From NCBI RefSeq assembly GCF_019104945.1, contig NZ_JAHRWW010000045.1, forward strand, positions 1 through 55,949: 55,949 nucleotides of DNA, given 5' to 3'. Below are positions 18,157 through 24,477 of this stretch, in pieces. Positions within the stretch are counted from its first letter, which is position 1. Every line of letters starts with the position of its first letter. The stretch is from Thermomonas sp. (GTDB lineage Bacteria > Pseudomonadota > Gammaproteobacteria > Xanthomonadales > Xanthomonadaceae). Made by a program: the position numbers and the translations under genes. The notes beneath the pieces were generated by a model. The model was not told the origin of the DNA, ran no database searches, and saw nothing but the letters and a program-made list of their open reading frames with translations.

Positions 18157-19218
18157 TCAACGCTTCCTCGTAGCTGACTTGTTTGCTGCTGACTTCAGCG
18201 CCTTTACTGCGGGCTTCACTGCCTTTTTAGCAACAGTTTTTTTGGCGGCAGTTTTTTTAATCACAGCCTTTTTTGCCGCAGCCTTTTTTACCACCACTTT
18301 GCTGGCTGCAGGCTTTGCCTGCGCGCGCGCAACGGGCGCTGGCGCGGCTTCCGTTTGGCCACGCTGCACGCGGCGCAGCTGGCGCTCTAATTCAGCAATT
18401 TTGCGGTGTGCGCTATCCAGTTCGGTTCGCCCCGGCATACCAAGCGTTTGCGCCGACTGTTCACCGATGGCCTGCGCGGCGGCGCGCAACTGCATTTGCG
18501 CGTTCGCAAGATCGCCAAACACATGCCGATACTCTTTGGAAAGCGCATTCTCAGCCCACGCTTCTTCGGCCGCATCCACCCACAGATCAAACAGCGCACG
18601 CACGCTGGTGATCTGCCGCCCCGGTTCTTCGCGTTCGGCTAATTTGAGTTCAAATACATCGAACGCATCTTTGGAAATTTTACTTAGCAAGGTGGCATAG
18701 GCATCCTGCGCTTCTTGCATGCGAATTTGCGCTTTGCCTAACGCCTGCAGTCGTTCTTGGTGCTCGCGTGCAAACCCAAATGCAGGAAGACCTAACGCGT
18801 TCATGGCCTCGCTGCGCATTCCAGCCAGCCACGGCGCGGTGGTTTCGCTCCACTGCATGAAATTTTCAAGACCCGGCCCGCGCATTCCCTGCAGCAAGCC
18901 ATCAAATGGATGGCTCGTGCCAAACGCATCGCGCCAGGCCTGTGCTACGTCGCTTGCGCGATGATCGCGCCCGGCAAACTGCGCGGCCACCTGCTGCATT
19001 TGCGCAAACCAATCACGGCTTTGTCGGTTGAAGTGTTCTAAGACACCGCCAAACCCCGTTTGCCCGCCCGCCTGTCTCATCCAATCGTCTAGGCTACTGC
19101 GCACGCCCGACAAACCGCCTTCAAAACCCGTTTGCGGGGCTGCACCACGCAGCGCATCACCCCACAAGTCCCAGTACTGGCGCGCAAGCGCCGCAAAATC
19201 ATTGGAAGCGTTGGCCAT
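18157..19218 (-). CDS. phaE: Class III PHA synthase subunit PhaE with histone-like tail
   Basis: Partner subunit that activates class III PhaC. The N-terminal region begins with a Trp-containing helix (ARQYWDLWGDAL) and is followed by long amphipathic helices and a coiled-coil (HRKIAELERQLRRVQRG near 275-290). The last 60 residues are almost only Lys, Ala, Val and Thr in AAKK/AVKK repeats and end in RKR, similar to histone H1 and to the tails of PhaF and PhaM, which bind DNA. This suggests that granules may be tethered to the nucleoid by the synthase itself. SD GGAGG precedes the ATG. The 3HB-oligomer hydrolase gene lies 55 bases upstream in the same direction. Confidence 0.9.
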   Translation of the reverse strand: MANASNDFAALARQYWDLWGDALRGAAPQTGFEGGLSGVRSSLDDWMRQAGGQTGFGGVLEHFNRQSRDWFAQMQQVAAQFAGRDHRASDVAQAWRDAFGTSHPFDGLLQGMRGPGLENFMQWSETTAPWLAGMRSEAMNALGLPAFGFAREHQERLQALGKAQIRMQEAQDAYATLLSKISKDAFDVFELKLAEREEPGRQITSVRALFDLWVDAAEEAWAENALSKEYRHVFGDLANAQMQLRAAAQAIGEQSAQTLGMPGRTELDSAHRKIAELERQLRRVQRGQTEAAPAPVARAQAKPAASKVVVKKAAAKKAVIKKTAAKKTVAKKAVKPAVKALKSAANKSATRKR

Positions 19219-21986: not shown

Positions 21987-22652
21987 ATGCCTAGCCTGCT
22001 GATTGCCGACGACCACCCACTCTTTCGCGCCGCACTCAAACAGGCGGCGCGCGACGCGCTGAGTGAAGTGGAATTGTTTGAATCCGGCACTCTGGACGAC
22101 ACGCTACAGCTTCTGGAAGCGCAGCCGCAGGTAGATCTGGTGCTGCTAGACCTGCACATGCCGGGTAACCACGGGTTGGCGGGGCTTGCGGCTATTCGCG
22201 CGCAGTTCCCCGGCGTGGCTGTGGTGGTGGTTTCCGCCAATGATGACCCGCGCGTAGTGCGGCGCGCATTGGACCATGGCGCTGCTGGCTACTTACCCAA
22301 GAGCACGGGCCTAGACGAGCTGCGCGACGCCATCCGTAGTGTGCTTGCCTGTGAGACGTGGCTACCGCCTTCGCTACGCGCTAGCGTGTCGCGCGCGCAA
22401 AGCGCACCCGCCGATGCCGACCTTGCTGCACGTTTGGCGAGTCTATCGCCACAGCAGTTCCGCGTGCTCTCACTGGTGGCCGAAGGTTTGCTCAACAAAC
22501 AAATCGCCGACCGTCTCGACGTACAAGAGCGCACCATCAAAGCCCACCTCACCGCGATTTTTGAGCGCCTCGGCGTGCGCAACCGCACGCAGGCCAGCGT
22601 TGTGCTGCGCGAGCTAGAACTCTCCGACCCGGCGCGGCAAATAGAAAGTTAA
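21987..22652 (+). CDS. NarL/LuxR-family response regulator (orphan)
   Basis: A 221-residue two-component regulator. The receiver domain has the acidic pair DDH at 8-10, phospho-acceptor Asp55 in LVLLDLHMPG and the conserved Lys in YLPKS. The C-terminal LuxR-type helix-turn-helix reads LSPQQFRVLSLVAEGL, NKQIADRL and VQERTIKAHL. No sensor kinase is encoded nearby. The start is 3 bases after hbdH, so it is cotranscribed and may adjust PHB or acyl use, but the target genes cannot be read from the sequence. Confidence 0.9.
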   Translation: MPSLLIADDHPLFRAALKQAARDALSEVELFESGTLDDTLQLLEAQPQVDLVLLDLHMPGNHGLAGLAAIRAQFPGVAVVVVSANDDPRVVRRALDHGAAGYLPKSTGLDELRDAIRSVLACETWLPPSLRASVSRAQSAPADADLAARLASLSPQQFRVLSLVAEGLLNKQIADRLDVQERTIKAHLTAIFERLGVRNRTQASVVLRELELSDPARQIES

Positions 22653-22670
22653 TTTCAACACCCTACTGGC

Positions 22671-22770
22671 TATTTTTTCACCACATCTGTTGACAGCCGC
22701 GCCACGTAACGCGGAGAGGTGGTTATCCACATAGTTATACGAATTTCATCCACAACGGCTGTGGAAAACA
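22671..22770 (+). repeat. DnaA-box module, copy 1
   Basis: A 100-bp unit that begins TATTTTTTCACCA and ends TGTGGAAAACA. It holds a perfect DnaA box TTATCCACA (22723-22731), the element TTATACGA (22735-22742), a one-mismatch box TCATCCACA (22746-22754) and, on the other strand, TTTTCCACA (22760-22768). The last two form an inverted repeat with a 5-base spacer. Confidence 0.85.
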
Positions 22771-22798
22771 TGCACGCCCGCACGATATGCACACGCAA

Positions 22799-22811
22799 AA
22801 TCAATTGTTTA
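22799..22811 (+). promoter_or_regulatory. Consensus IHF binding site between the DnaA-box modules
   Basis: AATCAATTGTTTA fits the IHF consensus WATCAANNNNTTR at every defined position. It lies in the 39-bp spacer and overlaps the first two bases of copy 2 by position, the arrangement of a DNA bend bringing two DnaA clusters together. Confidence 0.55.
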
Positions 22812-22909
22812 TTTTTTCACCAACACCATTGAAAGCCGCATAAAACAAAGCGCTCAGCGCGTTATCCACATGGTTATACGAGTTTCATCCACAGCAATTG
22901 TGGAAAACA
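22810..22909 (+). repeat. DnaA-box module, copy 2
   Basis: A second 100-bp unit, starting exactly 139 bases after the first with no insertion or deletion between copies. It has TTATCCACA (22862-22870), TTATACGA (22874-22881), TCATCCACA (22885-22893) and reverse TTTTCCACA (22899-22907). The last 49 bases match copy 1 at about 43 positions; the middle 20 bases differ. Boxes and spacings are conserved while linkers drift, which suggests selection. Confidence 0.85.
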
Positions 22910-22919
22910 GCGGCCTTAT

Positions 22920-23966
22920 TCACATCGATGCGATATCGATCACGAAGCGGTACTTCACATCGTTTTTCAGCATGCGTTCGTAAGCCTCATTGATGCCGTT
23001 GGCCGCAATCAATTCGATATCCGATGTGATGCCGTGCTGTGCGCAAAAATCGAGCATTTCTTGGGTTTCGGCGATGCCGCCAATCAACGAACCTGCAATC
23101 GCACGACGCCCGTTGATTAGACTTCCCACGTTGGGTGAAGGATGCGCGTGTTCTGGTAGCCCTAACAGCACCAAGGTACCGTCACGGCGCAGCAAACGGG
23201 TGTACTCGTCCAGCGAATGGCTTGCCGCAACCGTATCTAAAATTAAGTCGAAGCGATTGCGCTGCGCTTTCATTTGCGCGGCATCACTTGACACCACAAC
23301 TGCATCGGCCCCAAGCGCAAGTGCGGCTTCGCGCTTATTGGGGCTACTGGTAAACGCTACGACGTGCGCGCCCATCGCGTGCGCAATTTTGATCCCCATA
23401 TGCCCAAGCCCGCCGATTCCGACAACACCCACGGTTTTACCGGGGCCAGCCTGCCAGTGGCGTAGTGGCGAATAGGTGGTAATGCCCGCGCATAGCAGCG
23501 GCGCAACAGCGGCCAACTGGTCTGCGGGGTGGCTAATCTTCAGCACAAAATCTTGATTGGTTACCATGCGCTGCGAATACCCGCCCAGCGTGTGGCCAGG
23601 TGCTTCTTCGCAAGGGCTGTTATAGGTGTAGGTTGCACCGGTTTCGCAGTATTGCTCCAAGCCTTCTGCGCAGGAAGCACAATGGCGACAGCTATCAACC
23701 ATGCAGCCCACGCCCACTACGTCGCCCACCTTGAAGCGCGTCACGGCACTACCGACAGCGCTTACATGCCCCACTACTTCATGCCCTGGCACGCAGGGGT
23801 AGCGCGTTCCGCCCCACTCCGCGCGCACGGTATGCAGGTCTGAATGACAGACCCCGCAATAGGCGATTTCAATTTGCACATCGTGCTCACCCACCGCGCG
23901 ACGCTCGATCGCAAGCCCCTGCAATGGTTCATTGGCGGCGTTGGCGCCCCATGCTTTTACGTTCAT
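22920..23966 (-). CDS. Zinc-dependent NAD(P) alcohol/aldehyde dehydrogenase, YahK/CAD type
   Basis: A 348-residue medium-chain dehydrogenase. The catalytic zinc ligands are in GVCHSDLH and GHEVVGHV with a late cysteine. The structural zinc has four cysteines in SCRHCASCAEGLEQYC. The nucleotide motif is GIGGLGHMGIKIAHAMGA. The overall layout is that of YahK or cinnamyl-alcohol dehydrogenase, broad aldehyde reductases using NADPH. It lies 16 bases after the Nudix gene on the same strand, so the two are likely one unit. Confidence 0.9.
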   Translation of the reverse strand: MNVKAWGANAANEPLQGLAIERRAVGEHDVQIEIAYCGVCHSDLHTVRAEWGGTRYPCVPGHEVVGHVSAVGSAVTRFKVGDVVGVGCMVDSCRHCASCAEGLEQYCETGATYTYNSPCEEAPGHTLGGYSQRMVTNQDFVLKISHPADQLAAVAPLLCAGITTYSPLRHWQAGPGKTVGVVGIGGLGHMGIKIAHAMGAHVVAFTSSPNKREAALALGADAVVVSSDAAQMKAQRNRFDLILDTVAASHSLDEYTRLLRRDGTLVLLGLPEHAHPSPNVGSLINGRRAIAGSLIGGIAETQEMLDFCAQHGITSDIELIAANGINEAYERMLKNDVKYRFVIDIASM

Positions 23967-23982: not shown

Positions 23983-24477
23983 TCAAATTCTTGAATACTG
24001 CCAAGACTGCATTTTGCCGTCGCGGTATGGCATCACGCCGTGAAAAATACGCGGATCGTTATCGAATACCAAAGGCACAAAAAGACGGTCGCCGTCCCAT
24101 AGCGGCAGATCGAGCAGGCGATCGCGCTCTACCCATTCCAGCGTGCCTTCCGGGTTTTTCTTCAGCGGCGTGCCGGTATAATTGTCGATGATGAAGATAA
24201 AGCCCAGCCAATCTTCGCCTTGTTTGCCAAAGCCAGGCCAACTCAGCGTTCCGCGCAGCGTAAGCGAAGTGCATTCGACCCCGGCTTCTTCGCGAATCTC
24301 ACGCTTCATGCAGGCCAGCACGTCTTCGTTCGGCTCCATCTTTCCACCCAAGCCGTTGTACTTGCCAAGGTGCAAGTCGTCCGGGCGTGCATTGCGATGG
24401 ATCATCAAAACCTTGGTACGGTCCGGCGAAAGAACGTACCCCAACGTAGCAATAATAGGTGTGTATGGCATTTGCAT
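23983..24477 (-). CDS. Nudix hydrolase (8-oxo-dGTP diphosphatase-like)
   Basis: A 164-residue protein with a complete Nudix box, from GGKMEPNEDVLACMKRE to IREEAGVE at about residues 44-67, holding the metal-binding glutamates. The segments HRNARPDDLHLGKYNGLGGK and LTLRGTLSWPGFGK resemble MutT-like 8-oxo-dGTP diphosphatases of the NUDT1/YtkD type. An oxidised-nucleotide sanitising role is probable but the substrate is not proven by sequence. A start two codons later is equally possible. Confidence 0.85.
   Translation of the reverse strand: MQMPYTPIIATLGYVLSPDRTKVLMIHRNARPDDLHLGKYNGLGGKMEPNEDVLACMKREIREEAGVECTSLTLRGTLSWPGFGKQGEDWLGFIFIIDNYTGTPLKKNPEGTLEWVERDRLLDLPLWDGDRLFVPLVFDNDPRIFHGVMPYRDGKMQSWQYSRI

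Follow-up and report, generated by a model that had tools for sequence, protein, structure and literature searches.

The window, by which we mean the whole stretch of DNA analysed, is the entire 55,949-base contig C49 of a 2.69-Mb draft Thermomonas genome. Within it an array of DnaA boxes sits between two convergent genes, a LuxR-type response regulator gene (21987-22652, plus strand) and a zinc alcohol dehydrogenase gene (22920-23966, minus strand), and both genes end at the array, as the preliminary description of this region had said. Beyond the dehydrogenase lies a NUDIX hydrolase gene (23983-24477, minus strand), a marker of the same locus in other genera. The gap between the two flanking genes contains no ORF of at least 80 aa. 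A repeat search recovered the two 100-bp units originally described, at 22671-22770 and 22810-22909, which are 75% identical, lie 139 bp apart from start to start and align without indels. At the same spacings in both units, and at the places first given for them, are TTATCCACA, TTATACGA, TCATCCACA and a reversed TTTTCCACA. All four boxes attributed to each unit are thus present, although TTATACGA is a weak box that matches 7/9 consensus positions, and the array contains eight DnaA boxes within 240 bp, two of them weak.

The repeat begins about 4 bp earlier than was first proposed, with a 17-bp palindrome that had gone unmarked. Module 1, taken from this palindrome through the reversed box I, is therefore the repeat unit 22671-22770 extended 5' to 22667-22770 (plus strand). 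It consists of the palindrome TGGCTATTTTTTCACCA (22667-22683, no strand), which starts 79 bp upstream of box II; a strong box IV, TTATCCACA (22723-22731, plus), at offset -23 from box II; a weak box III, TTATACGAA (22735-22743, plus), matching 7/9 of the consensus at offset 11; box II, TCATCCACA (22746-22754, plus); and, 5 bp from box II, the reversed box I, TTTTCCACA (22760-22768, minus). Module 2, the second repeat unit (22806-22909, plus), has a decayed palindrome, TGTTTATTTTTTCACCA (22806-22822, no strand), with one mismatch in its TGG/CCA core, followed by box IV TTATCCACA (22862-22870, plus), weak box III TTATACGAG (22874-22882, plus), box II TCATCCACA (22885-22893, plus) and reversed box I TTTTCCACA (22899-22907, minus). 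A sequence model of the unit, described below and built partly from module 1, matches at 22666-22769 of C49 (E 1.3e-25) and at 22806-22908 (E 1.1e-21). An extra consensus box, TTATTCACA (22916-22924, plus), overlaps the 3' end of the dehydrogenase gene and lies outside both modules.

Neither a sigma-70-like promoter nor a terminator was found in the array region of the window. A conserved TTGACA had suggested a promoter, and in the window no partner hexamer was found for it; the original view that a promoter role is unlikely is upheld as probably right. The genome's own DnaA matches solved DnaA chains, including PDB 1j1v (E 4.2e-33), the DNA-bound domain IV of E. coli DnaA. When the array was compared as DNA with the rest of its own genome, the top match apart from itself had an E value of 0.062.

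Conservation of the units

In a DNA-comparison survey of 60 genomes, the array's own included, inspection of the matches showed units in 10 of 24 genus relatives, mostly as arrays of two or three with a spacing of 135-148 bp, and also in other genera. Thirty copies were found, from which one belonging to another family (L024) was dropped, and the resulting alignment of 29 copies from 13 sources has 26 invariant columns, which fall mainly within the boxes and the palindrome. These columns show the arrangement to exceed chance, as does the number of TTWTNCACA matches in the own genome, 132 compared with 70 for a reversed-pattern control. In another part of this genome (C2:12115-13515), TTATGCACA appears on the minus strand five times among the matches listed, at intervals of 348 bp, and is probably a tandem repeat. 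A sequence-only model of the 29 units has matches (E <=0.001) in 185 of 247 family genomes, representing 42 of 54 genera, often at several loci per genome, the weaker matches taking in related module types such as the one at priA. A module defined by its sequence is thereby matched in the majority of the family genomes covered, with Xanthomonas, Stenotrophomonas, Pseudoxanthomonas and Thermomonas among the genera.

The box-only pattern was run over one genome per species. The taxa named among the 80 matches listed are Xanthomonas, Stenotrophomonas, Pseudoxanthomonas, Luteimonas, Thermomonas, Luteibacter, Dyella, Rhodanobacter, Frateuria and Lysobacteraceae/Lysobacterales. Also among the matches listed are one from outside Lysobacterales, in a Desulfomonilaceae bin (L194), which may reflect a binning error or chance, and one in a bin named only Proteobacteria. 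At L027 and L111, which belong to two other genera, a response regulator gene and a NUDIX gene border the units (L111 has a relative of a PHB-oligomer hydrolase gene in addition), and a NUDIX gene lies beside units at four further loci (L097, L108, L120 and L131). Since flanking genes are shared along with the units across genera, the site at the NUDIX locus is old. There is only a very slim chance that the units are a dispersed repeat or mobile element devoid of any DnaA role: several copies per genome are seen in Xanthomonas-like and Stenotrophomonas-like genomes, but few columns are as well conserved as those of the boxes, the NUDIX locus is common to several genera, the array has no match in the plasmid collection and the box pattern has no exact match in viral contigs.

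How indispensable is the array at this locus? Loss of the boxes from close relatives with the same neighbouring genes had been named at the outset as evidence against a DnaA-control role, and this is in part what is found: four Thermomonas loci (L023, L028, L029 and L035) have the same two neighbours and no unit, although units are kept at this locus in other genera. At the unit-less loci the response regulator and dehydrogenase alignments end 24-47 bp apart, and when the model was run unfiltered over 15 loci, including 14 dehydrogenase loci, it returned nothing below E 0.27. A strong unit is present in 8 of the 16 Thermomonas genomes listed, the other eight being without a strong hit. Given these genomes, and the relatives with the same neighbours, the array must be dispensable at the window locus. 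The natural presence and absence among Thermomonas species also offers a ready comparison.

The palindrome and its fixed spacing

The layout of the unit is a 17-bp palindrome, box II at 79 bp from the palindrome start, a gap of 5 bp, and the reversed box I. The consensus of the palindrome is TGG-N2-A-N5-T-N2-CCA (TGGNNA-N5-TNNCCA), with an AT-rich middle. The spacing was examined in 137 distinct core hits from 120 stretches among the matches listed, chosen by their boxes alone; many of these hits come from close relatives, and two hits too near an end were left out. An exact palindrome stands at 79 bp in 68/137 core hits and at 78-80 bp in 82/137, and a palindrome within one mismatch stands at 78-80 bp in 121/137; outside that range, exact palindromes occur at offset 77 alone (three hits). 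In a larger set of 190 modules, whose loci were partly picked by a model that includes the palindrome, a strong box with at least 8/9 consensus positions lies at -23 from box II in 151, and there is mostly a weak box at -11. The palindrome tally over these 190 modules reads palindromic box pairs both ways, so that its 551 readings correspond to about half as many places. The commonest palindrome, TGGTCA...TCGCCA, occurs in 43/190 modules, and the palindrome fits the Fis consensus in 47/190 only. We infer that its ligand would be a dimeric DNA-binding or DNA-bending protein.

A structured RNA was considered and rejected. Comparison of 22500-23050 with Rfam gave no match up to E 1, the alignment yields a single stem of six pairs, formed by the II/I boxes, in which 0 pairs have changed on both sides, and the commonest palindrome is not fully self-complementary.

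The preliminary description placed an IHF site between the two units. The match AATCAATTGTTTA (22799-22811, plus) does fit the IHF consensus, but it overlaps the palindrome of module 2 and has no counterpart in any of the 10 other genus loci examined, and for the latter reason we kept it out of the definition of the module. Near the 190 modules, which are of several types, there are five IHF matches where 0.79 would be expected: the window itself, three priA loci and one at L100.

Comparison with DARS and datA

Which of the known DnaA-control sites do the modules resemble? For a comparison of geometry, the DARS1, DARS2 and datA regions of E. coli were taken from MG1655. In the accessible text of two sources (PMC10380432, PMC8682772), DARS is characterised by boxes I and II in head-to-head orientation, which it cannot do without, and box III is stimulatory. 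In the cores of both DARS1 and DARS2, boxes II and I are opposed across a 5-bp gap (offset 14), exactly as in both window modules. Like DARS1 and DARS2, the window modules are chromosomal, non-coding and away from oriC, and have a further box or boxes on the box II side in the direction of box II. The third box is where the likeness fails: in DARS1 and DARS2, box III has the orientation of box II and lies 12 bp behind it, whereas in the window it is weak (7/9) and at offset 11. The window modules are called DARS-like, and not DARS, because they have the II/I geometry in common with DARS but fall short of the strict box III.

Further differences concern what surrounds the core. E. coli DARS2 has IHF-like matches (12/13 positions) starting at -83 and -99 from box II, and a full Fis-consensus match at -137, likewise on the box III side. 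The modules do not keep IHF and Fis sites at fixed positions as DARS2 does; their palindrome, at -79 on the box III side, stands near the positions of the DARS2 regulatory sites. According to one study, as far as its accessible text goes, DARS2 loses activity when its IHF or Fis sites are moved by 5 bp, as would be expected of a fixed-spacing module, and conservation of Fis and of the DARS2 core is specific to those gammaproteobacteria that are related to E. coli (PMC4245941). Unlike DARS, the window modules have a strong extra box at -23, a palindrome in place of conserved IHF sites, tandem copies and, in relatives, several loci per genome, and they lie at the NUDIX and priA loci, whereas the E. 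coli DARS sites have uvrB and mutH as neighbours. At -179 from box II in E. coli DARS2 (L136), TGGTTGATCTTTCGCCA fits the palindrome consensus at 15/17 positions, at a different distance.

The preliminary description had proposed a DnaA-control locus, possibly equivalent to either datA or DARS. The type of locus stands; of the two equivalents, geometry favours DARS and speaks against datA. A datA-like site, at which hydrolysis of DnaA-bound ATP is promoted with IHF, is distinctly unlikely. The window does share with datA the clustering of DnaA boxes in non-coding DNA and an IHF-consensus match, and IHF matches near the modules exceed expectation. However, the IHF site of datA holds a fixed position relative to the essential boxes, and the match in the window is missing from 10/10 other genus loci; the closest facing pair of boxes in E. 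coli datA has a 3-bp gap and not the 5 bp of the window modules; and the array is near the terminus instead of near oriC. The offset of 14 between boxes II and I is that of DARS1 and DARS2 and differs from datA, and we therefore favour DARS over datA.

Eight boxes in 240 bp might also act as a titration reservoir, in which the cluster would merely sequester DnaA without catalysis, and chromosomal titration of DnaA has been reported for E. coli (PMC12371093, from its accessible text). We consider this unlikely for the array: a reservoir could dispense with a rigid 5-bp gap between head-to-head boxes and with a palindrome 79 bp away, and in the same E. coli source the density of boxes peaks near oriC, in contrast to an array near the terminus.

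Position and orientation on the chromosome

The array was placed on the arm between dnaA and dif in four relatives, where it lies at 0.81, 0.95, 0.90 and 0.89 of the arm (G002, G015, G018 and G009, respectively); the first three are single-contig genomes and the last is in two contigs and 89% complete. In the own genome dnaA is on a different contig from the array. The array shares DnaA boxes with oriC, but oriC is expected next to dnaA or at the skew minimum, and an array at 0.81-0.95 of the arm away from dnaA, and on another contig in its own genome, is excluded from being oriC, which settles the origin that had already been rated the less likely reading. Does this leave room for a secondary or back-up origin? 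DnaA boxes and an AT-rich palindrome are suitable components, yet besides the distance from dnaA the core is the head-to-head one of DARS, whereas oriC consists of head-to-tail box arrays according to the available text of a review (PMC10380432), and we give a back-up origin almost no credence.

Orientation was counted from hits at E <=1e-6 only, with chromosome sizes that are mostly rounded and, for one genome without a dif that could be found (G133), with the antipode of dnaA in its place. At E <=1e-13 in near-complete genomes, 28 of 31 loci point towards oriC, two point away and one is mixed, its stronger unit pointing away from oriC (G086); 30 of these 31 loci are in the ori-distal half of the arm. 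At E <=1e-6 there are 72 loci, of which 57 point towards oriC and 14 away, and one (G086) is mixed. An inversion around the ori-ter axis leaves the orientation of a locus as it was, so that related genomes do not contribute independent loci. Counted by independent neighbourhood, six groups point towards oriC, two away, and one, folP, is mixed and mostly away. Modules outside the priA and folP loci are mostly in the ori-distal half and mostly point to oriC, but represent too few independent neighbourhoods to establish a polarity.

A polar terminus element, either a fork barrier or a replichore-oriented signal, would be in keeping with the two counts at E <=1e-13, and the array does resemble Tus-Ter in its ori-distal placement and mostly single orientation relative to the fork. 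In place of Ter sites, which are oriented to stop forks leaving the terminus, it has DnaA boxes, though, and its polarity by neighbourhood is a mixed 6:2:1, with related loci that are not independent, so that such an element seems very unlikely.

Modules at the priA and folP loci

Equally dense clusters elsewhere in the genome had been expected to weaken the case for a special locus, and one such cluster does exist in the own genome, upstream of priA. It strengthens the idea instead, because the cluster itself consists of two modules of the same architecture. Among the first 100 of the 132 own-genome box matches, only two exact facing pairs with offset 14 occur, both on contig C10 at about 500 and 132 bp upstream of the priA start; boxes scattered at random would be expected to give about 0.002 such pairs (hand calculation). 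These tandem modules (L259, C10:15750-16560) have a full III-N3-II-N5-I' core and a palindrome at 78-79 bp, and in both of them box III matches 8/9 at offset 12, the arrangement of the E. coli DARS box III.

In other genomes, 10 loci likewise have a module of this kind upstream of a gene for a PriA homologue. The 11 priA loci were hand-picked, those other than our own from weak model hits, and the modules were filtered on summed box score; all 11 of these picked loci have such a module upstream, and 14 modules pass the filter. In the 14, boxes II and I match 9/9 and box III matches 6-8 of 9. The protein at L114 was identified as PriA, and the remaining priA loci were called by 64-83% similarity to it. 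A third module type, CTGTCCGCA-N3-TTGTCCACA-N5-TGTGG, forms tandem arrays at the folP locus of other genera (L115 2850-3570, L116, L118 and L128), the L115 locus having ftsH, folP and hflX.

The priA-locus modules lie about 124-503 bp upstream of the gene, in the own genome and at the 10 other loci alike, where an operator could be expected at which DnaA and a palindrome protein regulate transcription of neighbouring genes. For the array this is improbable, as both window genes end there and no sigma-70-like promoter was found. On the DARS-like reading, the modules tie the DnaA-control system to the replication-restart gene priA.

A possible DnaA-reactivation mechanism

How might the modules work? 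With a probability of about 0.6, we consider the region to be two tandem DARS-like modules that would promote release of ADP from DnaA, an activity deduced from their sequence; they would then be a DARS-type element in variant form, and may help xanthomonads to time chromosome copying. ADP-DnaA would bind boxes IV, III and II cooperatively, head to tail, and would meet the DnaA on the opposed box I. Head-to-head contact between AAA+ domains would loosen ADP, and apo-DnaA would be released and then bind ATP. A putative dimeric protein, bound to the palindrome on the box III side at a distance of about 7.5 helical turns, might gate this reactivation from roughly the place where E. coli DARS2 has its IHF-like (-83/-99) and Fis (-137) matches, which would make it a possible timing factor. 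The near-terminus position would let ATP-DnaA rise towards the end of the cycle, ahead of the following initiation. Counting against the DARS-like reading are the weak box III at offset 11, the absences in relatives, the lack of a genus-wide IHF site and a palindrome that mostly does not fit the Fis consensus. The exact spacings of the module lead to direct predictions.

The founding DARS paper is reportedly that of Fujimitsu and others in 2009. Sequences similar to DARS are conserved in many proteobacteria according to the accessible text of a review (PMC10380432), and since the review cites the founding paper for this, some of the sites described here may be listed there. The DARS studies drawn on here, in their available text, concern E. 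coli and its relatives. Among the matches listed for DARS or DnaA boxes in Xanthomonas, Stenotrophomonas, Xylella, Pseudomonas and Lysobacter, and for modules upstream of priA, no title or abstract describes these modules, and no paper was found that links a DnaA-reactivating sequence with Xanthomonas.

A broader proposal, which we put forward tentatively and regard as rather doubtful, is that Lysobacterales have a chromosome-wide, amplified network of DARS-like modules, gated by the putative palindrome protein and not by IHF and Fis, whose ori-distal placement and mostly common orientation would couple DnaA reactivation to fork passage or to replication of the terminus. In such a network the loci would be spread along the arm, with the priA locus towards oriC, folP in mid-arm, and the NUDIX and other loci near the terminus.

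Elsewhere in the window, at 18157-19218 on the minus strand, is a PHA synthase III E subunit gene, whose product has a lysine/alanine-rich tail that resembles the histone-H1-like HC2 at a score below the Pfam cut-off.
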